64,000 bases of DNA from Planctomycetota bacterium (GTDB taxonomy: Bacteria > Planctomycetota > UBA8742 > UBA2392), in NCBI GenBank assembly GCA_003576915.1, contig QEVF01000006.1, positions 1-64,000 on the forward strand, in the 5' to 3' direction. The notes below the pieces were generated by a model. The model had not been told where the DNA came from. It was given only the letters and a program-made list of their open reading frames with translations, and searched no databases. This document shows positions 49,368-60,742 of this stretch, one piece after another. How positions within the stretch are numbered: position 1 is the stretch's first letter; each line of letters starts with the position of its first letter. The translations under genes were made by a program, and so were the position numbers.

Positions 49368-51965
49368 ATGAGGCTTGCCTGGCTTGTTGCACTCTGTGCC
49401 ATTCTGAATCTCTTCGTGACTTCGGCCCGTGCCCAAACTTTCACAAGCAGTGGCGCCGTCGCCATTCCCGACACCCCTTCCAACGGCGTAGAAAGCGCCA
49501 TTGCGGTGTCCGGAGTCTCCACGGGCTCCCTCTATCCCCGCATGCGCGTGACCCTGACCATCACCCACGGGGCCTGCGACCACCTGGACATATTCCTCCT
49601 TCCACCCGGCGTCAACTGGCCCGGCGGCGTGATATCGGCAACGTCGCAAGCAACCGCGATTGGCGCGGGCGTCATTGAACTGAGCACCGACAACATGGGC
49701 GGCGGCGCGAACTACACCGGCACTCAGTTCGTCGTCAGGGGCGACAACAACTTTGACCCCACGGCGTCGGCAACACCCATCACGTCTGCGACCGCCCCGG
49801 CCACAGGACTGTTCACTCCCGAAGGCCAGCACCTCTTCGGCACGGCAATCTACTTCATGGGTGCCAATGGGTCGTGGCGCTTGGCCATTATCGACGACAC
49901 ACCCGGCGTTTCCGGCACGCTGGTGACCTGGTCCATTGAATTTGGCGTGCCGACCACGGCCGAGGCGGCCCTGCTGGACTTCGGCGCAAACAACAGCCAG
50001 TACGCAACCTCGGGCGAAATCGCCAACGGCACAACCTACAACGTGCCCTTTACAGCCAAGACCGGCAGCACGCAAGCCGTCAGGCTGTACTGGTGCAACT
50101 TCGGATCCGTCGTCTTGAGCGCTAACTCGCCGGTCATAAGCAACATGTCCAACTGCTCAGCGACCCTCTCCGGTACCGGCCCGTTGCCGGCCGCTACAGC
50201 CCCCGGTACCTACGCGGCACTGGTGTTCAGTGTGACTCCCACCAGTCCTGGCACCTACAGCTTCGTGTTCACCTGCTCCACAGGAGACCTCAATGAATCC
50301 CCCTACTCCTTCGCTGTTACAGGTGCGGCCCTCGCCTTGCCTTCCATTCCGGAGATTCAGGTGGAGCGACCCAACGGAGCGGTATTGGCAGACGGAGGTA
50401 CCGATTTTGTCGGAGCCACTTCGCCGGGCACGCCCCTGACTTTGACTTACACCGTCAGAAACAGATCCGCGTACAGCCTGTCGCTTACTACACCCCTGGC
50501 GGCACCCGCCTCCACTGTCAATTGTTCGGCGGTCGTTACGACGCAGCCTCCGGCCATCGTGGGACCGGGGTACAACGTCACTTTTGCCATGGAGGTCGTA
50601 CCAGCGGCGCCCGGCGTCTGGTCATTCACCTGGTCGTTGTGGAACAACGACCCGGACGAAGACCCCTACGACCTGACCGTCACCGGTACGGCTGTGGCTC
50701 CTCCACCGGAGTGCGATGTCTACCGCGGCACGGCCGTGGCCGACGGCAGCGTCGACACCTTGGGCGCATCGACGGTAGGCGTTCCGGTGACGCTCTCCTA
50801 CGTCATTGCCAACACCGTGCAGCACAGCACCCTCACGCTTGGCGCCATGGTCGTGGGCGCCACAGCTTCCAATTGCAGCGCCACCATTGTCGTCATGCCC
50901 GCCGTCAGCATCGCAGGCGGAGCGACGGACCTCCTTGTCATCGAACTCACGGCCTTGGGGGCGGGCCCCTTTTCCTGCAGCGTCAGCTTCACTAACAACG
51001 ACTCCAACGAGAACCCGTACGACTGGACCATCGCCGGCACCGCAACGCCTCCTCCACTCCCCGAGTGCGACGTTTGGCGAGGATCGCTTGCCATCGCCGA
51101 CGGTTCCGTTGACACCCAGGGCGCGCTAGCGGCCACCGTGCCTCACACCGTGACCTACACCATTGAAAACAGCGGCACGGCCGCCCTGATCCTCAATGGC
51201 GCGCCGCAACTTGTGGTTGTCACCCCGGGCAGCAATGTGATCGCATCAGTCACCATTTCTCCGTCCGCCACGGTGGCTGCGCAGGGCACGACGCTCGTTG
51301 AGATCACCTTCACCGTTCTCGCCAACGGCCCGTTTGACTTTCAAATCAGCTTCGACAGCAACGACACCGACGAAAACCCGTACCAGTGGACTGTGTCCGG
51401 CAATGGCACAGCAGCTCCCGAAATCGGCGTCACGCGGGACCAGGTGACCGCGAGCGTGGTGGTATACGACGGCGGCGACGATGACATCGGCGATGGCGTC
51501 AGCGGCAGTCCCCTGACGCTCACCTACAGCATCGCCAACACAGGCAACGCCCCGCTGAACCTCACCTTGCCCGTATCTGTCACTGGAGCATCAAATTGCA
51601 CCGTAGCTGTCACAGCGCAACCCAACGCTGTCGTCCCTGCGGGCAGCAGCACCACACTGGTATTTGTGGTGACGCCGCTGACCGCCCAATCCTTCAGCTT
51701 CTCCGTCAGCATTGCCAACGATGACCCCAATGAGAATCCCTACAACTGGACCGCCCGGGGCCAGAGTACATCCATCGGCGGCTTCAGCGGCGAAGCCGGT
51801 GGTGGAGGTGGATGTTCAACCGGGGACGGAACTCCTTGGACGCCGCTGATGCACGTCGGCCTCGTCTTGTTGGTCATGGTTGCCGCCCGAAGGCGCCGCC
51901 ACACCCCCGCCGGAGGATCAGCTCAAACGCCGTCATCTCCACCACGGCGTCCCACTGCCTGTTGA
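49368..51965 (+). CDS. Large exported protein: P-domain, Ig-like repeats and MYXO/Synerg-CTERM-like tail
   Basis: 865 residues. A signal peptide (MRLAWLVALCAILNLFVTSA) is followed by a proprotein-convertase P-like domain (about 30-195: IPDTPSNGVESAIAVSG, RMRVTLTITHGACDHLDIFL, GSWRLAIIDDTPGVSGTLVT) and five Ig-like units, each ending in a related ENPYxWTVxG motif (SPYSFAVTG, DPYDLTVTG, NPYDWTIAG, NPYQWTVSG, NPYNWTARG). The C-terminal tail (about 811-844) is GGGGGCSTGDG, a hydrophobic helix and RRRR, a sorting-tag layout as in MYXO-CTERM or Synerg-CTERM proteins. The Arg-rich helix ends 21 residues before the stop, an unusual extension. It is probably cell-surface anchored. Confidence 0.85.
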   Translation: MRLAWLVALCAILNLFVTSARAQTFTSSGAVAIPDTPSNGVESAIAVSGVSTGSLYPRMRVTLTITHGACDHLDIFLLPPGVNWPGGVISATSQATAIGAGVIELSTDNMGGGANYTGTQFVVRGDNNFDPTASATPITSATAPATGLFTPEGQHLFGTAIYFMGANGSWRLAIIDDTPGVSGTLVTWSIEFGVPTTAEAALLDFGANNSQYATSGEIANGTTYNVPFTAKTGSTQAVRLYWCNFGSVVLSANSPVISNMSNCSATLSGTGPLPAATAPGTYAALVFSVTPTSPGTYSFVFTCSTGDLNESPYSFAVTGAALALPSIPEIQVERPNGAVLADGGTDFVGATSPGTPLTLTYTVRNRSAYSLSLTTPLAAPASTVNCSAVVTTQPPAIVGPGYNVTFAMEVVPAAPGVWSFTWSLWNNDPDEDPYDLTVTGTAVAPPPECDVYRGTAVADGSVDTLGASTVGVPVTLSYVIANTVQHSTLTLGAMVVGATASNCSATIVVMPAVSIAGGATDLLVIELTALGAGPFSCSVSFTNNDSNENPYDWTIAGTATPPPLPECDVWRGSLAIADGSVDTQGALAATVPHTVTYTIENSGTAALILNGAPQLVVVTPGSNVIASVTISPSATVAAQGTTLVEITFTVLANGPFDFQISFDSNDTDENPYQWTVSGNGTAAPEIGVTRDQVTASVVVYDGGDDDIGDGVSGSPLTLTYSIANTGNAPLNLTLPVSVTGASNCTVAVTAQPNAVVPAGSSTTLVFVVTPLTAQSFSFSVSIANDDPNENPYNWTARGQSTSIGGFSGEAGGGGGCSTGDGTPWTPLMHVGLVLLVMVAARRRRHTPAGGSAQTPSSPPRRPTAC

Positions 51966-52009: not shown

Positions 52010-52453
52010 CTACTTTCCCCAGAGTTCCAACTGGGCGCGGCCGCCGCGGGGCAGATTCTTGTAGCGGAACTCCACCTTGCGGATCACCCGCTGCCCGCCC
52101 GGCAGGTCAATCACGCGCGAGCGCGTGTCTTCCGTGAAGATCAGGCGCGTGCGCGGCGAGAACTTGTCGCCGTCGCCGAACGTCACCTCCACGTCGAAAA
52201 GCTCCAGTCCGCTGTGCTCGCACTTCAGGGCTATGCGCGAAAAGCGCCCCTCCGACGCCGTCACCATGATCGTGTCCCGGTCCGCCCCGGCCTTGTAGTT
52301 CACCCAGCGTTCGCCCAGCTTGTCCCAGCCGGACATCGCGTCGGCCCGGGCATCGCGCATGTCGTCGCGCACTTCTTCCTTCACCGTGTTCTTGCCGCAC
52401 CCCGCCACCAGGCCGAGGCAAAGCACCAGCAGCACCGCCCATCGTGCAGTCAT
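52010..52453 (-). CDS. YaaI/DUF2541-like lipoprotein
   Basis: 147 residues. A lipoprotein signal (RWAVLLVLCLGLVAGC) is followed by a spacer with KEEVRDDMRDARADAM and one domain (about 43-147): LGERWVNYKAGADRDTIMVT, GRFSRIALKCEHSGLELFDV, RVIDLPGGQRVIRKVEFRYK and AQLELWGK. This matches the domain of E. coli YaaI-type DUF2541 proteins and is related to the three copies in the neighbouring gene (52513-53670), from which it may derive by duplication. The function is unknown. Confidence 0.8.
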   Translation of the reverse strand: MTARWAVLLVLCLGLVAGCGKNTVKEEVRDDMRDARADAMSGWDKLGERWVNYKAGADRDTIMVTASEGRFSRIALKCEHSGLELFDVEVTFGDGDKFSPRTRLIFTEDTRSRVIDLPGGQRVIRKVEFRYKNLPRGGRAQLELWGK

Positions 52454-52512: not shown

Positions 52513-53670
52513 TCAGGCCTTTTTGCCGTACACGTTGATGGTGGCGCGACCCTCGCCGCCCTTGATCTTGCTCTTGTACTTGAACACGATCTTCTGGATG
52601 CGGCGGGACTTGCCCGGCAGGTCAATGTCGCGGCTGCGCGTGTTCTCGTCAAATTCCAGTCGCGTCTTGACCTCGTGCTTGTCGCCGTTGGCGAAGGTCA
52701 CCTCGATATCCCACATCTCAAGGTTGCCCTCCTCCACTTCAACGCGGAAGGAACTGAAGAGCCCTTCGCCTTCGCAGTTCAGGGTGTCCTTGTCGGCGAT
52801 GAAGTCCACCTTGCGCGAACCCAGGTGTTCCCAGCCCGGGAAGCGGTCTTTGGGTTCCTTGGGCGTAGGCTGTCCCGCGCCCTGCTTGCCGTAGAGGCGG
52901 ATGGTGGCCTTGCCGTCACGGATGCGGCTCTTGTACTTGAACGTCACGCTCTTGATCACGCGGGCATCGCCGGGGAAATCAAAGTTGCGCGAGCGCGACC
53001 CCTCCTTGAACTCCGCCCGCGCCTCCGGCGACCAGGTTTCATCATTGCCGAAGGTGAACTTGATGTCCCACATCTCCACTTCACCGTCTTCGCAGGTGAT
53101 CAGCGCGCCCGTGAAACGGCCATCCCTGGCGCCCACCTCAATCGTGTCCTTGTCGGCCAGGAAGTCGACGCGGCGCGTGCCAAGGTGCTCAAAACCCTTG
53201 TACTGCAGGGGTTTGTCCTCGAAGTCCTTGCTCCCCGCCGTTCCGGGGCCCTTGCCGTAGACCTCAATGGTGGCCTTGCCGCGCTTGAGCTTGGAGCGGT
53301 ACTTGAAGGTGATTTCCTTGATGATGCGGGCTTCGCCAGGCAGGTCGATCTGGCGTGAGCGCGAACCCTCCTGGAACTCGGCGCGCACCTCCGGCGAGAA
53401 ACTTTCGCCGTTGCCGAACTCGATCTTGATGTCGTGCATGACCAACTCGCCGTCATCGACGGACAGCATGATGCTGTTGAAGCGGCCTTCCTTGGCGGTG
53501 ACGTCAATCGTGTCCTTGTCCGCCCCGAAATCGACCTTCTTGCTGCCTATGAGTTCATAGTTCGGAAACTTCGGCGCCATCATCATCTGCGCCTCCAAGG
53601 GTTGGCTCGTATGGCTGGCCAGACCCATGGCTACCGCGGCGGCAAACGCCCATCCAAAAAGCTTACGCAT
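52513..53670 (-). CDS. Exported protein with three tandem YaaI/DUF2541-like domains
   Basis: 385 residues with a signal peptide (MRKLFGWAFAAAVAMGLASH) and three copies of a roughly 105-residue domain (about 37-140, 158-262, 278-383). Each has LIGSKKVDFGADKDTIDV- or LGxRxVDFxADKDT-type starts, an EGRF/DGRF core, a W/H-DI-KxxFGN strand, an EGSRSR or ENTRSR turn and FKY(R/K)S plus YGK ends. Copies are clearly homologous but not identical. ATG 53670 follows GAGGAGACA. The function is not known. Confidence 0.85.
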   Translation of the reverse strand: MRKLFGWAFAAAVAMGLASHTSQPLEAQMMMAPKFPNYELIGSKKVDFGADKDTIDVTAKEGRFNSIMLSVDDGELVMHDIKIEFGNGESFSPEVRAEFQEGSRSRQIDLPGEARIIKEITFKYRSKLKRGKATIEVYGKGPGTAGSKDFEDKPLQYKGFEHLGTRRVDFLADKDTIEVGARDGRFTGALITCEDGEVEMWDIKFTFGNDETWSPEARAEFKEGSRSRNFDFPGDARVIKSVTFKYKSRIRDGKATIRLYGKQGAGQPTPKEPKDRFPGWEHLGSRKVDFIADKDTLNCEGEGLFSSFRVEVEEGNLEMWDIEVTFANGDKHEVKTRLEFDENTRSRDIDLPGKSRRIQKIVFKYKSKIKGGEGRATINVYGKKA

Positions 53671-53926
53671 TGTCTCCTCTTTCGTTGTTGGGCCGGTCCC
53701 CCCGGCCTCAGCCCCTATTGCCAGCAGCACAGCATCGAACCCCCCACATCCAAAAGGTTGCGGAGATTTCATACAAACCGTACGAAACACCGGAGAAGGT
53801 GCGACCTGTACTCAGCATGGGACAAGATAGACTTGACCTGTGCGGACTCAATGGGGCGCTTTGGCACCGGACGATTGGCCCGAACTTTGAAGTGCACATT
53901 CCGCCTGGCGGAAACACAATCGGCAC

Positions 53927-55018
53927 ATGCTCGGCTACCTCGAGTTTCCCAATTGGAATCCGGTCGTCATTGACCTCACCTGGCTGCTGCCCAACGCAGC
54001 CCTGCGCTGGTATGGCCTCACTTACGTCATCAGCTTCGCCTTTGGTTATGCCGCGCTCTGGTTCATGCAAAAGCGCGGCTATTTGCGCATTGCGGCCGAT
54101 GACGTGGTGAACTACATGATCGTCGGGGTCATCGGTGTGTTCGCCGGCGGCCGCCTGGGCGAGATCCTGTTCTATCAGTTCGACTACACGTTCCTGAGCG
54201 ATCAGCCGTGGTCGGAGCGCCTGGTCAATGTCTTCCGGGTGTGGGACGGCGGCATGAGTTTTCACGGGGGGCTCATCGGCGTGACCCTTGCCGTGCTGCT
54301 GTTTTCACGCTACCGCAGGCAGAACTTTTTCAACGTCATGGACGGCTGCACCCAGTTCATGCCCTTCGGCATCGCCTGCGTTCGCTTTGGAAACTTCGTG
54401 GGGGGGGATCTCTACGGCCGCGTCATCACCGATGAAGCCGGACGCGCCATCTATGACGGGTCACGTCTTCCATGGTACGCCATGAAGTTCCCCACGGACC
54501 CCGAGGCGCTGACCCTGATTGCACGCCAGGTGCCTTCAGACACCTGGCGCGACCACAGCCCACTGCCGGTGGCGCCGGACGTCTGGGCCAGGGTCGAGCC
54601 CTTTGTGCCGGGGCGTTACCCGAGCCAGCTCTTGCAGATGCTGCTGGAAGGGCTTTTGCTCTGGTTCACGCTCATCTTTTTCAGGCGCTATTGCCGCAAG
54701 CCGGGCATGCTGGCCTCGCTGCTGTGCGTGTTTTATGGCGTTTACCGTTTCCCCGTGGAGTTCCTGCGCGAGCCCGACCCTCACCTCAACCCCTCCGCCG
54801 AGGGACTGAGCAATTTCAGCGCCCGCGTGCTGCATGCCCTACAGCTCACCATGGGTCAGGCCCTCTGCGTAGGGCTGATTCTCTTCGGCCTTGTCATGTT
54901 CTTCTATTGCTGGCGCAGCAACCGCTCCGGCACCCCCTACAGTGACGACGAGCTTCGCATGCGCGCCTTCACGAAAAAGGCGGCCCCGCAAGGAGCCGCC
55001 TCACTCGCCAAGCCCTGA
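53927..55018 (+). CDS. lgt: Prolipoprotein diacylglyceryl transferase Lgt
   Basis: 363 residues; attaches diacylglycerol to the lipobox Cys of prolipoproteins in the inner membrane. Seven or so membrane segments are visible. Signatures: LRWYGLTYVISFAFGY, FAGGRLGEILFYQ, WDGGMSFHGGLIGV (active-site His), GIACVRFGNFVGGDLYGR, the segment YPSQLLQMLLEGLLLW and YRFPVEFLREPDPHL. It would serve the many lipoproteins in this window. The loop after GDLYGR is longer than usual (about 60 residues). The C-terminal end overlaps a minus-strand terminator. Confidence 0.95.
   Translation: MLGYLEFPNWNPVVIDLTWLLPNAALRWYGLTYVISFAFGYAALWFMQKRGYLRIAADDVVNYMIVGVIGVFAGGRLGEILFYQFDYTFLSDQPWSERLVNVFRVWDGGMSFHGGLIGVTLAVLLFSRYRRQNFFNVMDGCTQFMPFGIACVRFGNFVGGDLYGRVITDEAGRAIYDGSRLPWYAMKFPTDPEALTLIARQVPSDTWRDHSPLPVAPDVWARVEPFVPGRYPSQLLQMLLEGLLLWFTLIFFRRYCRKPGMLASLLCVFYGVYRFPVEFLREPDPHLNPSAEGLSNFSARVLHALQLTMGQALCVGLILFGLVMFFYCWRSNRSGTPYSDDELRMRAFTKKAAPQGAASLAKP
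54973..55001 (-). terminator. Terminator for the HEAT-repeat gene, inside the lgt 3' end
   Basis: AGGCGGC (54978-54984) and GCCGCCT (54995-55001) make a 7-bp stem with a 10-nt loop. On the minus strand it is followed by a run of five T (54977-54973). It falls inside the last codons of lgt but serves the gene ending at 55025. Confidence 0.7.
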
Positions 55019-55024
55019 AAAATC

Positions 55025-56173
55025 CTACTTCTCGCGGGCCACGGCCATCTCCAGCAGGGGCAGAACCTGCCGGGCGGCCTTGCGCACGGCTTCGGCGCCT
55101 GATGCGTCCTCCGCCAGCTTGCGCACCTCGCCCAGGCTGTCCTTCCACGCCACGACACACAGCGCGCTTGAGATGAACTCGACGTCCGCCGGAAAGTTGC
55201 GCAGGCAGGCCACAAGCAATGCCGCGCTGCCGGCGCGTATTTCACGGGCGATTTCAGCCTTTTCGGCCCCCCGTGCCTGCCATCCGCCGCTGTTGCCGAG
55301 GGTTCCCAGCGCAACGATCAACGCTCTGCGAAGGGCCACGGCCTCTTCACCCTCTCCGCCAAGTCCGGCACTCTCGAGGCGGGACCGGATGGAGGCCAGG
55401 GCCTTGACGTCGGCCATCCAACCCAAGGCCATGGCCGCGCCCTCGCGGACTTTCAGGGGCGTCGCGGCACTGCCGACAACGTCATCAAGAAGAGTCAGGC
55501 CCTCTGCCCCCGCGCACTGGGCGTAACTCACGGCGGCCAACGCGCGCAGCCCGTCGCTGTGGCTGCCGCTCTTCAGAACGTCCTCAAGCACGAAACGGGC
55601 CCGGCCGTCAGACTTCTCGCCCGGAACCTGCACCAGGGCCGCCAGGAGCGTTTCGCGTTCCAGCTGGCCAGCCTCGCCGCCGCTGAACTTGCGCTCAGGC
55701 AGTGTGAACACCAGGGCCTCCAGCAGCAGGGGCACAATGGAAGTTCCGGCGTGGGCGAAGTCGCGGTGGCAGGAGGGCTTGCCGTGACGGAACTGACGGT
55801 AAACCTCGGGGTCGATGCCGCGGGGCTGGTCCACGCTCTGGGCCAATTCGGGCTGACTGATGCGAAGTCGGCAGATTTCAGCGGCCAAAGCGCGCGTGTA
55901 ACGGTCCCGCGTCCAATGCTCGTCCTTTGCGGCGTGCTCCAGGGCCGCAAGAGCATCGCTGCCGAAAGCCAGCACCGCAGCACGCTTCTCACGCCAGGTC
56001 CTGGCGTCGCCCGCCTTGACGGCGGCGAGTTCGTCAAGCGCTTCCAGCAGCGCCGGCTCGTTGAACTCCGCCACCGGCAGGGAAGCGGGCTCCAAGGCCC
56101 AGGCAGCCTGAGGCGCGGCAAAGAAGGCAAGGAGGCCAAGACTGACGGCAGCGATGAATCGGTGGCTGAACAT
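55025..56173 (-). CDS. Exported HEAT-repeat protein
   Basis: 382 residues with a signal peptide (MFSHRFIAAVSLGLLAFFAA, cleavage near AWA). The rest consists of alpha-helical repeats: LRALAAVSYAQCAGAEGLTL, REGAAMALGWMADVKALASI and RRALIVALGTLGNSGGW are HEAT/Armadillo-like. It lies 42 bp after the PKD-PAD lipoprotein gene on the same strand, so both are likely one transcript and it may be its scaffold or adaptor. No enzyme motif. Confidence 0.8.
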   Translation of the reverse strand: MFSHRFIAAVSLGLLAFFAAPQAAWALEPASLPVAEFNEPALLEALDELAAVKAGDARTWREKRAAVLAFGSDALAALEHAAKDEHWTRDRYTRALAAEICRLRISQPELAQSVDQPRGIDPEVYRQFRHGKPSCHRDFAHAGTSIVPLLLEALVFTLPERKFSGGEAGQLERETLLAALVQVPGEKSDGRARFVLEDVLKSGSHSDGLRALAAVSYAQCAGAEGLTLLDDVVGSAATPLKVREGAAMALGWMADVKALASIRSRLESAGLGGEGEEAVALRRALIVALGTLGNSGGWQARGAEKAEIAREIRAGSAALLVACLRNFPADVEFISSALCVVAWKDSLGEVRKLAEDASGAEAVRKAARQVLPLLEMAVAREK

Positions 56174-56215: not shown

Positions 56216-58519
56216 CTAGTCCCACCAGTTTCCGGCGGGGGGAGTGCGCACGTTGTTCGTGCCGCAGTGAATCTCGCCCAACAGGTCGTGGTAGGAGTAG
56301 AAGACGTCAACAAAGGTCACCTGCACCGGGTTGGAGGCCGTGCCCAGCGCCTCTAGGGCCGTCTTGGTGGCGGCCGCCCAGACATCGGTCGGCTGGTCCG
56401 GCCCTTCAGGATCCGGCACCACCAGATGGGTGGTGCCGTTGGCCAGGGGCAGTGAAACCAGGTTCGTCACGCCGGGGTTGAGGGCCGCGGCATAGTTGCT
56501 TCCGACGTTTTCAAACAGCACCGGCAACTCGACGAAGTCGGCGGCCGTCAGCCCGCACTGGGTGATGAGCTGTTGCTTGATGGTGTCGAGCTTGGCCTGG
56601 GCGTTGGTGTTGTACGTCATCAGCGCGGCATCACCGAGAATGGCATTGACTGTCGTCTGCCAGCCGTTGGTGGTGCGGCCCGCAAAGACGGTAAGGTTGC
56701 CGCCGCCGGAACTCTGTACGGTTTGAAGGATGTTGCGGGCCAGAGTGGGCGAGGCAAAGGCGACGGCCCACCCCCGGGCGCGGCTGGGCGCAGGCACGAA
56801 CGCGAGAAACTCGTCCACGTGGCCCACGGCCAACCAGGTCGCCGGAATTTCGAGCGAGGGCCCTTGCAGGGAGCAGGCCGTGAAGAACTGCTTGTACAGC
56901 GAGTCCATGGCGGTGTTGTCTGTGGTGGTGGAGCCCAGCAAGGTCGAAGGCCCCCCGGTGATAATGCGCCCCCAGGGGTAGTTCGTGGTGCCGTTGTTGT
57001 GAGGCGGCACGACTTCAAGGTTGCCGCCGTAGTTCTGCGAAACCTGCGTGCTGGCAAAGCGCTGGATGAAGTCAAAGTCCGGATCCCAGAGAATGTTCTG
57101 GCACCAGGCATCGACGGCACGGTAGCGGGCAAGCTGGAGCACACTGTCCACGCGGCGCCTACCGCCGGCGGAAGGCAGGAGCACGGTCATGGGCTCGCTG
57201 CTGTCCTGCAGCCAGCGATCGTTGCTGTAGCTGGAGCCCGGCACTTCCTGGTACGTGATGCCGGCGGAGTTGCACAAGGCCTGAATCGTGGTACGCGCCG
57301 CGGTGTTGTTCGAGGTGCCGCTCGTGATGCTTACGATGTAATAGCGGTCGGCCACCCACAGGTTGGTGTTCATGATGGGCGGCGCACAACGCAGGCGCAC
57401 CTGGTCCGTGCCAAGGCTGACGCTGGCGGCATCGCGCACGTCCAGGGTAAGAAACACAATACCGTCCCAGCTTGAGCTGAGGCGGCCACGACACTCAATG
57501 CCCAGCTCAATGTCGGCCGCCTGGACCGCGGCCACGGGCAGGGTGAAGCTGCCGCCCGTTGAATACACGGAGGTCCAGGTGCCTCCGTTGTTCTGGAAAA
57601 TCCGGACGTTACTCTGCGCTGCGGCGGGCGTCACGTTGATGGTGACACTGCCGCCGGAAGGCGCTCCGCTCATCTGGCGAATCACGATGCGCGCGAGATC
57701 AAGCGCGTCGGACGCACCATTCACCGCCGTGTCAGAATGATCAAGCTGCGCGTTGTTGTCGTCGTCGTCGATGTTCCAGTAGAAGACAGCGCCCCGCGTC
57801 GTGGACCAGGTCTCCTCGCCCGCCTCGTCGGCCGCGTTGTCCACGGACCCGTTGCGGTCTGTGTCCACATCAATGTCAACCGTCGTCGAGGGCGGAGTAT
57901 TGACCGTAATATACGCCGTGCGGGTGCGTACGTTGCTTCCGCCACTGTTGCTGGCCGTCAGCACCACGGTGTAGGTGCCGGCCGCGCTGTAAACGTGAGC
58001 AGGATTCTGAGCCGCGCTGTCGGCCGTGCCGTCATTGTTGAAGTCCCACGACCAGGCCGTGGCGTTCGTGGACTGGTCGGTGAACTGCACTGAACTACCC
58101 AGGGTTACGGTGGTAGGCGAAGCCACGAACTCCGCGACCGGCGGAGGGGGCGTCACCGTGATGTAAGCCATGCGCAGACGGGTGTTGATGCCGGCGGCGT
58201 TAGACACCTGTAGGGTGACATCGTAGATGCCGGGCGCCGTGTAGACGTGGCTGGGGTTCTGGCCGTAGTCTTCGGGCGTGCCATCGCTGTTGAAGTCCCA
58301 CTGCCAGCCAGTGGCGCCCGTGGAACCGTCCGTAAACTGCACCGGGCTTCCGACCTGTACGGTAAGGGGAGAAGCCGTGAACTCAGCGATTGGCAGGCTG
58401 GTCGTTGAACCGCCGCCACCCCCGCCGCCCCCGGAACTCCCGCCGCCGCAGCCGGCCAGCAGCAAGGTCACCACGGACAGCAAAGTCACGACACGGGCCG
58501 ACACGAATATCGCATGCAT
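56216..58519 (-). CDS. PKD-domain lipoprotein with protein-arginine deiminase (PAD) domain
   Basis: 767 residues. A lipoprotein signal (LAGC, Cys24) and a Gly-rich linker precede two PKD domains (about 43-124 and 127-206). An acidic segment, DIDVDTDRNGSVDNAADEAG and IDDDDNNAQLDHSD (about 214-265), resembles the calcium-binding middle domain of PAD enzymes. The C-terminal catalytic domain (about 380-767) has DRWLQDSSEPM (D439), NYPWGRIITGG, GHVDEFLAFVP (H567, D569) and EIHCGTNNVR (C752), matching the catalytic Asp, His, Asp and Cys of animal PADs. It would convert protein arginine to citrulline at the cell envelope. ATG 58519 starts it. Confidence 0.88.
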   Translation of the reverse strand: MHAIFVSARVVTLLSVVTLLLAGCGGGSSGGGGGGGGSTTSLPIAEFTASPLTVQVGSPVQFTDGSTGATGWQWDFNSDGTPEDYGQNPSHVYTAPGIYDVTLQVSNAAGINTRLRMAYITVTPPPPVAEFVASPTTVTLGSSVQFTDQSTNATAWSWDFNNDGTADSAAQNPAHVYSAAGTYTVVLTASNSGGSNVRTRTAYITVNTPPSTTVDIDVDTDRNGSVDNAADEAGEETWSTTRGAVFYWNIDDDDNNAQLDHSDTAVNGASDALDLARIVIRQMSGAPSGGSVTINVTPAAAQSNVRIFQNNGGTWTSVYSTGGSFTLPVAAVQAADIELGIECRGRLSSSWDGIVFLTLDVRDAASVSLGTDQVRLRCAPPIMNTNLWVADRYYIVSITSGTSNNTAARTTIQALCNSAGITYQEVPGSSYSNDRWLQDSSEPMTVLLPSAGGRRRVDSVLQLARYRAVDAWCQNILWDPDFDFIQRFASTQVSQNYGGNLEVVPPHNNGTTNYPWGRIITGGPSTLLGSTTTDNTAMDSLYKQFFTACSLQGPSLEIPATWLAVGHVDEFLAFVPAPSRARGWAVAFASPTLARNILQTVQSSGGGNLTVFAGRTTNGWQTTVNAILGDAALMTYNTNAQAKLDTIKQQLITQCGLTAADFVELPVLFENVGSNYAAALNPGVTNLVSLPLANGTTHLVVPDPEGPDQPTDVWAAATKTALEALGTASNPVQVTFVDVFYSYHDLLGEIHCGTNNVRTPPAGNWWD

Positions 58520-58665: not shown

Positions 58666-60174
58666 TTACTCGTCCGACGGGCGGCGCACGATCTCTGCCC
58701 AGTCCACCTCGACGCGGCTGCCCCTGGGGTCTGAGGCCCAGACCTGGAAGTTCTTGAAGGTGAACCCGATGCGGATGGGCGTTGTCTTGTCCAGCGTCCG
58801 AAACAGGTCCGTCAGGGGCAACTCCATTTCCATCCACTCGCCGACGCGGGCCGCCTTGAACGAACAGCGGTAGTTGCCGTCTTCCGCCGTGCCCATTTGC
58901 AGCAGCAATTCTTCCGGGGCGCGACTGACCCGCAGCCTCATGCGCAGCACGTCGCCTTTGCGCAGGCGCTGGGGCTGGCCAAGGTAAACGGACACCCCGG
59001 CCTCCGTTCCCTCACCGCGCCCCACCCCGTCAATGACCTCTCCTTTGTGGCGACGCTCAGGGGGGACCTGCTCAAAGTCCTCACGCCACAGCAGGCGCTG
59101 GGGCAAGCCGCGCAACATGGCGTGTTTGCGGGCCAGCGCTTCCAGGCTGGTGGCGGACGCACGGGAAAGCCCCTTGGCGGTCAGGGTGGCAGACTTCCCA
59201 GCGCCCACCAAGCCTCCGGGGGATTCCACCTGGCCCTGGAGGCAGGAGATTGACAATGAGTTCCTGCCCGCCTCAAAGAGGACCATGCCGGCCGTGACAA
59301 CGCTCAGGGCAGAGGCGGATACCGTCACTCGAGGCAGGTCCAGATTGTCGAGGAACAGGCTTTCGTCGATGAGTTCCAGTCCCTGTTCTTCGCTGCCCAG
59401 CGCTATCTCGCCGTCGAATCGCGCCAGCGCGCCCGAAACCAGAATCAAATCGGCCTGCCCCGTGGTCCGCAGGCGGGCACCCGCCCGGAGCTGTTCGCCG
59501 GCTTCGACGACGCGCCACTCCTCCGACTCCGCATAGCGCAACTTGAGGCCATTCTTGCGGCCAACTTCCTTTACAGTAGCTACGACGGCTCGCGGCAACT
59601 CCGCCTCAGGCGCCGGCCGTTCCTCGCTCCTGGGGGGCTCGGTGGATTCCGGACGCCGCACCTCGCCCTCCGGCGCCCTGGCAGGCGGCTGAGGCGGCAC
59701 CTCCGCGGGCGGCTTTTCTTCCCGTGCCGGGGGTTGGGGCCTTGGCCTCGGGTCGGCGGGCAGGTCCGGTAGCGGAGCCTCAGGTTCGGGCGACGCCTTG
59801 GCCGGGGGAACTTCGGGCGCGGGCACAATCTCCGCTGGTTCCTGCAGGTTCGGCGCAAGGACAGGGGCATTGGCCTTCGCCCCGCCCTCGGGAGCAGGCG
59901 CGAGGCGCGGCTGGTTCATGGCTATGATCACCGCGGCAAAGGCCGCCAGGACCAGCAGGGCCGCCAGCAAAGGTCCGGTGGCTGAACTGCGGCGCACCGG
60001 CCCAACGCCCATGCGTCTCCCGGCGGCCGGCAGGCTGCGACTGCGGCGCGGCCTTTGGGGCTGCTGCCTCTGCGCCGCGGCAAGAATACGGCCCGACAGG
60101 TCGGGCGCCGCCTCCTGTCCCACCACCTCGCGCAACGCGGCATCTAGGTAACGATCCCGGGCCTGTTCACTCAT
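58666..60174 (-). CDS. FecR-like transmembrane anti-sigma/signalling protein
   Basis: 502 residues. A short cytoplasmic helical part (SEQARDRYLDAALREVVGQE) like that of anti-sigma factors, one transmembrane helix (about 66-87), a long Pro/Glu-rich stalk (about 90-200), a FecR-like domain (about 205-330: GEQLRAGARLRTTGQADLIL, ALARFDGEIALGSEEQG) and a C-terminal beta-sandwich (about 360-502). Its ATG overlaps the sigma gene stop (ATGA), so they are translated together. It probably senses an envelope signal and controls the sigma factor. Confidence 0.75.
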   Translation of the reverse strand: MSEQARDRYLDAALREVVGQEAAPDLSGRILAAAQRQQPQRPRRSRSLPAAGRRMGVGPVRRSSATGPLLAALLVLAAFAAVIIAMNQPRLAPAPEGGAKANAPVLAPNLQEPAEIVPAPEVPPAKASPEPEAPLPDLPADPRPRPQPPAREEKPPAEVPPQPPARAPEGEVRRPESTEPPRSEERPAPEAELPRAVVATVKEVGRKNGLKLRYAESEEWRVVEAGEQLRAGARLRTTGQADLILVSGALARFDGEIALGSEEQGLELIDESLFLDNLDLPRVTVSASALSVVTAGMVLFEAGRNSLSISCLQGQVESPGGLVGAGKSATLTAKGLSRASATSLEALARKHAMLRGLPQRLLWREDFEQVPPERRHKGEVIDGVGRGEGTEAGVSVYLGQPQRLRKGDVLRMRLRVSRAPEELLLQMGTAEDGNYRCSFKAARVGEWMEMELPLTDLFRTLDKTTPIRIGFTFKNFQVWASDPRGSRVEVDWAEIVRRPSDE

Positions 60175-60674
60175 GGACGCAGCCTCTTTTCGATGCATTG
60201 GCGCAGGTGCTCCCGGGCGCGACGCAGCAGCGTTTTGGCACCCTCAGGATCCATGCCCAGAGAACGGGCGATGTCCGCGCGGGACGCCGCGCTGGAATAT
60301 TGAAGATCGATGGCGCGGCGCGCGCGCCCGGCCAGGGTTTTCAGGCACTCCCGCAAGGCCAGGCGATAGCGTTCGCCCTCGTCGTCGCCTTCGGCCGACT
60401 CCCAGGCTGCATCCAGCTCGTCGATGTTCCCGACGGACTCAAGTTTTGAATTGCGCCGCAGGGCCATGAGGTAGTGGTTGCGGGCCACGGTGCGCAGCCA
60501 CGCTGAAGTCTGGGAGCGGCTGCGCTGCTCCGGCGGGTGTTCAAGCAGCTTGAGGAAGGTCTCCTGGGTCAGGTCATCGGCCAGGGCCTCCGGACAACCC
60601 AGAAAGCGCAGGTAGCGCCAAACCGAAGCCTGATGCCGGCGCACCAGCTCAGTTAGGTCGATTTCCTCTGCCAT
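60171..60674 (-). CDS. ECF-type RNA polymerase sigma factor
   Basis: 167 residues. Region 2: LVRRHQASVWRYLRFLGC, ADDLTQETFLKLLEHPPEQR and SAWLRTVARNHYLMALRR. Region 4: LAGRARRAIDLQYSSAASRA and DIARSLGMDPEGAKTLLRRA (helix-turn-helix). Compact region 2 and 4 with a short linker is the ECF layout of planctomycetes. The start is set at ATG 60674 (MAEEIDLTELV); TTG 60716 also opens the frame. Its stop overlaps the FecR-like gene by 4 bp. Confidence 0.9.
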   Translation of the reverse strand: MAEEIDLTELVRRHQASVWRYLRFLGCPEALADDLTQETFLKLLEHPPEQRSRSQTSAWLRTVARNHYLMALRRNSKLESVGNIDELDAAWESAEGDDEGERYRLALRECLKTLAGRARRAIDLQYSSAASRADIARSLGMDPEGAKTLLRRAREHLRQCIEKRLRP

Positions 60675-60742
60675 GAGTGTCGCATTCACATACCGGAAAT
60701 GCGCGGCATGGCCCAAGGGGGTCAGGCAATTCGGGCCCGGCT

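Follow-up and report, generated by a model that had tools for sequence, protein, structure and literature searches.

In animal protein-arginine deiminases (PADs), filling of the Ca2 site triggers assembly of the active site. The PAD reaction proceeds through attack of a thiolate on the guanidinium carbon, formation of a covalent tetrahedral adduct and rupture of the C-N bond (PMC9699117). The Ca1 residues and the Ca2 residues E351, D369 and N373 have been assigned in PAD4, in which the N373A substitution alone abolishes activity (PMC11402830). Whether binding proteins activate human PADs at low calcium has been discussed (PMC11402830, PMC9174705). The animal-type calcium switch has been argued to be absent from fungal and actinobacterial PADs, and the PAD_N domain is absent from bacterial PADs outside one cyanobacterial clade (PMC8826395). 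For bacterial and fungal PADs, functions were described as 'completely unknown' in a 2022 review (PMC9174705).

Here, we describe a PAD gene and its downstream neighbor in a 64,000-nucleotide stretch of planctomycete DNA (positions 1 to 64,000 of contig QEVF01000006.1, hereafter the window). The window corresponds to contig 46 in a draft genome of 3.9 Mb, in which PAD occurs once.

A planctomycete lipoprotein of the PAD family

The PAD open reading frame runs from 58519 to 56216, with an ATG start and a TAG stop. Its features in the window, with the basis for each, are:

56216-58519, minus strand: PKD-PAD lipoprotein gene, 767 amino acids (open reading frame; Pfam PAD, PAD_M and PKD; PDB PADs; orthologues)
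58448-58519, minus strand: predicted lipoprotein signal peptide with lipobox LAGC and putatively lipidated Cys24, then a Gly/Ser-rich tether (sequence; lipobox count in the family)
58154-58393, minus strand: PKD domain 1, a duplicate, most relatives having a single PKD (Pfam; 48/78 identical to PKD 2)
57902-58144, minus strand: PKD domain 2, the copy adjoining PAD_M (Pfam)
57560-57880, minus strand: PAD_M, residues 214-320, with Ca3-5 positions N249, D251, D253, D260, D271 and D274 (Pfam; alignment)
56219-57412, minus strand: PAD catalytic domain with D439, H567, D569 and C752 (Pfam; motifs; alignment)

The PAD profile PF03068 matched residues 370-767 over profile positions 3-395 of 395 (E=2.8e-65; 221.3 bits, curated cut-off 25), PAD_M (PF08527) passed its cut-off narrowly (E=9.4e-7; 29.0 against 24.8 bits), and two PKD stretches were recognized by Pfam. 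No Pfam PAD_N match was found in this protein at E<=1; its N-terminus consists of the lipobox, the tether and PKD. When the PDB was searched with phmmer, human PAD1 was matched over residues 213-767 (E=2.2e-47), followed by PAD4 (~1e-45), PAD3 and PAD2, with the PAD matches spanning E values from 1e-47 to 1e-40. None of the PAD models of NCBIfam matched the window protein. PF04371, the PPAD-type profile, had no match anywhere in the source genome, and a PPAD-type identity was therefore rejected.

We located the motifs DRWLQD, YPWGRI, GHVDEF and EIHCGTN at residues 434, 514, 566 and 749, respectively, and LAGC at residue 21. In an alignment of 27 rows (the window protein, 24 other bacterial PADs and human PAD1 and PAD4), the PAD4 residues D350, H471, D473 and C645 corresponded to D439, H567, D569 and C752 and were invariant in all 27 rows. 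Similarly, PAD4 W347, R372 and R374 corresponded to W436, R465 and R467. The Ca1 ligands Q349, E353 and E411 were kept as Q438, E442 and E502, as were the six PAD4 positions N153, D155, D157, D165, D176 and D179, which we take to be the Ca3-5 ligands. The Ca2 ligands E351, D369, S370 (presumably also a ligand) and N373 were lost, being replaced by S440, Q462, L463 and Y466, and replacement of the same kind was seen throughout the whole bacterial PAD family aligned. Thus, the window PAD probably lacks an animal-type calcium switch. We infer that the exported enzyme may meet enough calcium to dispense with it; the loss of these ligands could also leave the enzyme less active or inactive. The switch position, D388 in PAD4 and D389 in PAD2, is D481 in the window and N or E in some orthologues.

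Orthologues with 95, 72, 54 and 50% identity shared the lipobox, Gly/Ser-rich tether, PKD, PAD_M and PAD_C and kept all of the cited motif residues; their conservation down to 50% identity places the motif set far beyond chance. An AF2 model of the whole PAD, built on a shallow alignment of five orthologue sequences, had a pLDDT of 48.7. At the level of sequence, the window protein is confirmed as a true member of the protein-arginine deiminase family, and the gene is conserved and very probably functional. A preliminary description of the gene, which left out its strand, had given the four catalytic residues and their motifs exactly. The profile search, with PAD_C and PAD_M both over cut-off, bore out its assignment to PAD; the lipobox, the Pfam matches and the six kept Ca3-5 positions agreed with its picture of a lipoprotein with two PKD domains and a PAD_M carrying calcium positions. 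Its term 'animal-type' suits the family and the catalytic set but not the Ca2 site, whose ligands are lost, nor the position of the protein in a tree without cyanobacterial rows, apart from the human PADs. We infer, as it did, that envelope proteins may be citrullinated.

The LAGC lipobox at residues 21-24 was conserved in the family. It followed a hydrophobic stretch in 9 of the 9 family members with an intact N-terminus, as compared to 11% of shuffled N-termini, and at least one PKD was present in the same 9 of 9 and in L059, from another family. The nearest relative (95% identity) has two PKDs, like the window protein, and other relatives have one. Since the two window PKDs are identical at 48 of 78 positions, one copy probably arose by recent duplication. 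Among the more distant planctomycete PADs, L040, L045, L056 and L060 are lipoproteins but carry no PKD, so that export appears to predate the PKD fusion. PKD thus appears to be a family-level addition to exported PADs, and the PKD-lipoprotein form, as read from these sequences, is conserved within one planctomycete family. That PKD had replaced PAD_N, as first proposed, does not hold, because bacterial PADs outside one cyanobacterial clade are without PAD_N (PMC8826395).

Most matches in the search for relatives (L006-L039) covered the PKD part only and are uninformative on PAD; the relatives that matched over PAD were all from Planctomycetota. PAD was found in 24 of 392 sampled planctomycete genomes, including 10 of the 16 of its own family, and is therefore not a one-off. 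A search of freely available journal papers found no published PKD-fused, planctomycete or HEAT-paired PAD. Elsewhere, PAD was found in 3 of 289 genomes from the phylum to which a Verrucomicrobia bin belongs and in 2 of 68 from that of a Hydrogenedentes bin, with mostly weak or partial matches in both. A few Streptomyces and Embleya plasmids carry PAD homologues with 27-28% identity, and scanning of viral contigs found no PAD relatives. In a tree built on PAD_M-PAD_C, in which cyanobacterial rows were absent, the window protein, all of its family members, L056 and L059 formed one set (support 100/100), and the human PADs were placed elsewhere.

Several unusual forms were also seen. L062, L065, L066 and L067 (genomes G335 and G219) are divergent lipoprotein PAD-like proteins with a long insertion in the PAD domain, and G219 has a normal PAD in addition. 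PAD is C-terminal in the very large proteins L047 (G312) and L064 (G160), with open frames of 2452 and 1039 amino acids. In L131 and L132, from the phylum of the Verrucomicrobia bin, the PAD matches are split within frames of 1522 and 1264 amino acids, which marks these as large proteins whose PAD domain is interrupted by insertions. The PAD gene L082, on the Streptomyces plasmid NZ_CP108735.1, is flanked by genes for a response regulator and a histidine kinase, a hint of a connection with sensing in actinobacteria.

The partner gene downstream of PAD

The next gene starts 42 bp downstream of the PAD stop codon on the same strand, and no terminator-like site was found between the two in the window:

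55025-56173, minus strand: partner gene, 382 amino acids, with an N-terminal signal sequence and a predicted HEAT-type alpha-solenoid (homologues; AF2; neighborhood)

The window partner had no Pfam match; HEAT_2 exceeded its cut-off in the partners L088, L090 and L095. AF2 modeled the window partner as an all-helical solenoid (pLDDT 86.6, pTM 0.81), and the nearest PDB folds were HEAT-based alphaRep proteins, a modest resemblance (best E=7e-4, TM <0.5 by query length). The partner is thus predicted to be an exported HEAT-type alpha-solenoid. It is a previously unremarked companion of PAD, and although the core of the preliminary description was right, this most informative part, which it did not mention, directly adjoins the gene that it covered.

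We searched for the partner over the same 392 planctomycete genomes. Exactly 14 genomes contained a full-length match, each with E<=1.9e-26; all 14 had PAD, and in 14 of 14, across five taxonomic families, the partner lay directly after it. The next matches were short fragments of generic HEAT repeats (E>=3.5e-8). Homologues directly after PAD were present in the genus, the family and the families f5, f81, f13 and f41 of other lineages, and the six PAD-less genomes of the window's own family contained none (0/6). Co-occurrence gave Fisher p values of ~1e-19 overall and ~1e-6 outside family f1, which overstate the association because the genomes are phylogenetically related. On the tree, the partner-bearing rows required two changes, a value that 0 of 500 shuffles reached. 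In most loci the distance from PAD to partner lay between -4 bp, where the genes overlap, and 61 bp; L088 had a longer gap of about 150 bp. That the partner was never found without PAD in the 392 genomes provides a genetic handle on bacterial PAD function, and a first lead.

Among the 24 PAD genomes of the sample, 10 lacked a full-length partner. In one of these ten, G312, the contig ends at that point. In another, G011, PAD is a lipoprotein and is followed after 66 bp by a different exported protein of the HEAT_2 type (E=3.5e-48); behind the PAD of G219 comes an exported protein that matches HEAT_2 weakly. PKD was rejected as a defining element of the pair, which occurs without PKD in G161, G008 and G039.

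The loci supply their own control: the partner was kept beyond the genus, whereas lgt, the upstream sigma factor and the gene that follows the sigma factor were kept only within it. Just upstream of PAD, also on the minus strand, are a Sigma-70-family factor and then a 510-amino-acid protein without a Pfam match (58666-60198 and 60171-60716), conserved only in the genus. Similarly, lgt (53927-55018) was rejected as a lipoprotein-export link because it is adjacent only within the genus. Two adjacent minus-strand genes farther along (52010-52453 and 52513-53790) share one domain, as a single copy in the first, which is lipoprotein-like, and as about three tandem copies in the second; DUF2541, on the first gene, was the sole Pfam match of the pair. 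The plus-strand gene at 49368-51965 encodes an 865-amino-acid protein with choice-of-anchor D repeats, at the C-terminus of which GGGGGCSTG is followed by a hydrophobic segment and RRRR. This C-terminus scored 19.4 bits with MYXO-CTERM, just under the cut-off of 20, as did L005:13347-14870, and these Planctomycetota may thus have a sorting system of the myxosortase-like kind.

A candidate extracytoplasmic citrullination system

PAD and the solenoid probably form a two-gene extracytoplasmic citrullination system. After export and lipidation at Cys24, the lipoprotein would be kept at a distance from the membrane by the Gly/Ser-rich tether and the PKD domains. Its PAD_M-PAD_C enzyme would thereby be presented to the cell surface or the periplasm, both normally rich in calcium. 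There, it would deiminate peptidyl-arginine by standard PAD chemistry, with Cys752 as the nucleophile and His567, Asp439 and Asp569, using Ca1 and Ca3-5, and not the animal Ca2 switch, in a presumably calcium-dependent manner. The exported solenoid would most likely bind the enzyme or its protein substrate, as an adaptor, a substrate-presenter or a regulator. Because two exported proteins are co-encoded and co-inherited, and the first is an enzyme with proteins as its targets while the second belongs to a protein-binding class of scaffold, the most economical reading is that the solenoid binds the enzyme, the substrate or both. We counted in favor of such a system the PAD profiles, the catalytic and calcium residues, the lipobox and PKD, the adjacency, the co-inheritance and the predicted solenoid fold, and against it the 10 of 24 PAD genomes without a full-length partner, the loss of Ca2 and the pLDDT of 48.7 for the PAD model.

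The ten PAD genomes in which no full-length partner was detectable weigh further against the idea, which we consider unlikely, that the partner is an inhibitor, chaperone or immunity-like protein restraining an always-on extracellular deiminase. There are also no toxin-like delivery features, and PAD is anchored to its producer. Such a restraint would have its uses, as the low intracellular calcium that restrains animal PADs would fail outside the cell and the absence of the Ca2 switch residues would make another control on PAD useful; no partner was seen without PAD in the 392 genomes.

It is distinctly unlikely that the partner is instead a dedicated substrate, in which citrullination of solenoid arginines would alter its surface and binding. 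Partner proteins contained 6.4-12.4% arginine as compared to 0.5-5.9% lysine, 13 arginine columns and no lysine column were invariant among seven partners, and this reading, too, fits a partner confined to PAD genomes in the sample of 392. However, HEAT/PBS repeat motifs ordinarily contain arginine, and GC-rich genomes favor it over lysine, so that the enrichment may be without meaning.

The loss of the Ca2 ligands, at a site where N373A kills PAD4 (PMC11402830), would fit a PAD relative that is catalytically dead, as human PAD6 is (PMC11402830), or strongly altered, and that acts in binding at the cell surface. This reading appears quite improbable: unlike in PAD6, every catalytic residue and the Ca1 site show no variation within the family, actinobacterial and fungal-type PADs are likewise without Ca2 ligands (PMC8826395), and activity has been reported for bacterial and fungal PADs (PMC9174705).

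A nutrient or pH role, without any signaling or modification purpose, is very improbable: PAD is predicted to be exported and deimination releases ammonia, which could be gained from the peptidyl-arginine of scavenged extracellular protein, but the dedicated solenoid would be left unexplained and peptidyl-citrulline is a poor nitrogen route as compared to proteolysis.

For the two-gene citrullination system, a location outside the cell would largely remove the puzzle of the high calcium need of PADs. A partner that acts close to the Ca1/Ca2 region would be relevant to the possible activation of human PADs by binding proteins at low calcium. More tentatively, the pair may represent an unrecognized surface citrullination module, in which a tethered PAD without the Ca2 switch has a dedicated solenoid that sets its activity or target choice.

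Comparison with known systems

With animal PADI1-4 (PF03068, PF08527 and PAD_N), the window protein shares PAD_M-PAD_C, the catalytic D/H/D/C set, the counterparts of W347, R372 and R374, Ca1 and Ca3-5, as well as D481 at the position of D388 of PAD4, a marker of the animal/cyanobacterial clade. It differs in lacking PAD_N and the Ca2 ligands, and in its lipoprotein export, PKD and HEAT-type partner. The two-domain PADs of actinobacteria and fungi are similar to it in having PAD_M-PAD_C without PAD_N and no Ca2 ligands (Cummings 2021, PMC8826395). However, their triple-His linker between PAD_M and PAD_C, which reads HHH in Strep_L068, is absent from the window protein (N384-T385-N386), which also has the PKD/lipobox form and a separate tree branch. 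At the switch position, these PADs have glycine (PMC8826395) in contrast to D481, but two of the three actinobacterial rows in our alignment also read D, and the column is thus not clear-cut.

The Porphyromonas-type PPAD (PF04371, an agmatine-deiminase relative) is also an exported bacterial protein deiminase with the same reaction type, but it belongs to a different family. Centipede venom PADs are likewise of the PPAD type and not of the window PAD family (PMC7864903). Finally, the HEAT_2 and PBS-lyase HEAT solenoids (PF13646, PF03130) and the alphaRep designs resemble several partner members in fold and repeat profile, whereas the partner constitutes a distinct full-length family that occurs only beside PAD in the planctomycete sample.
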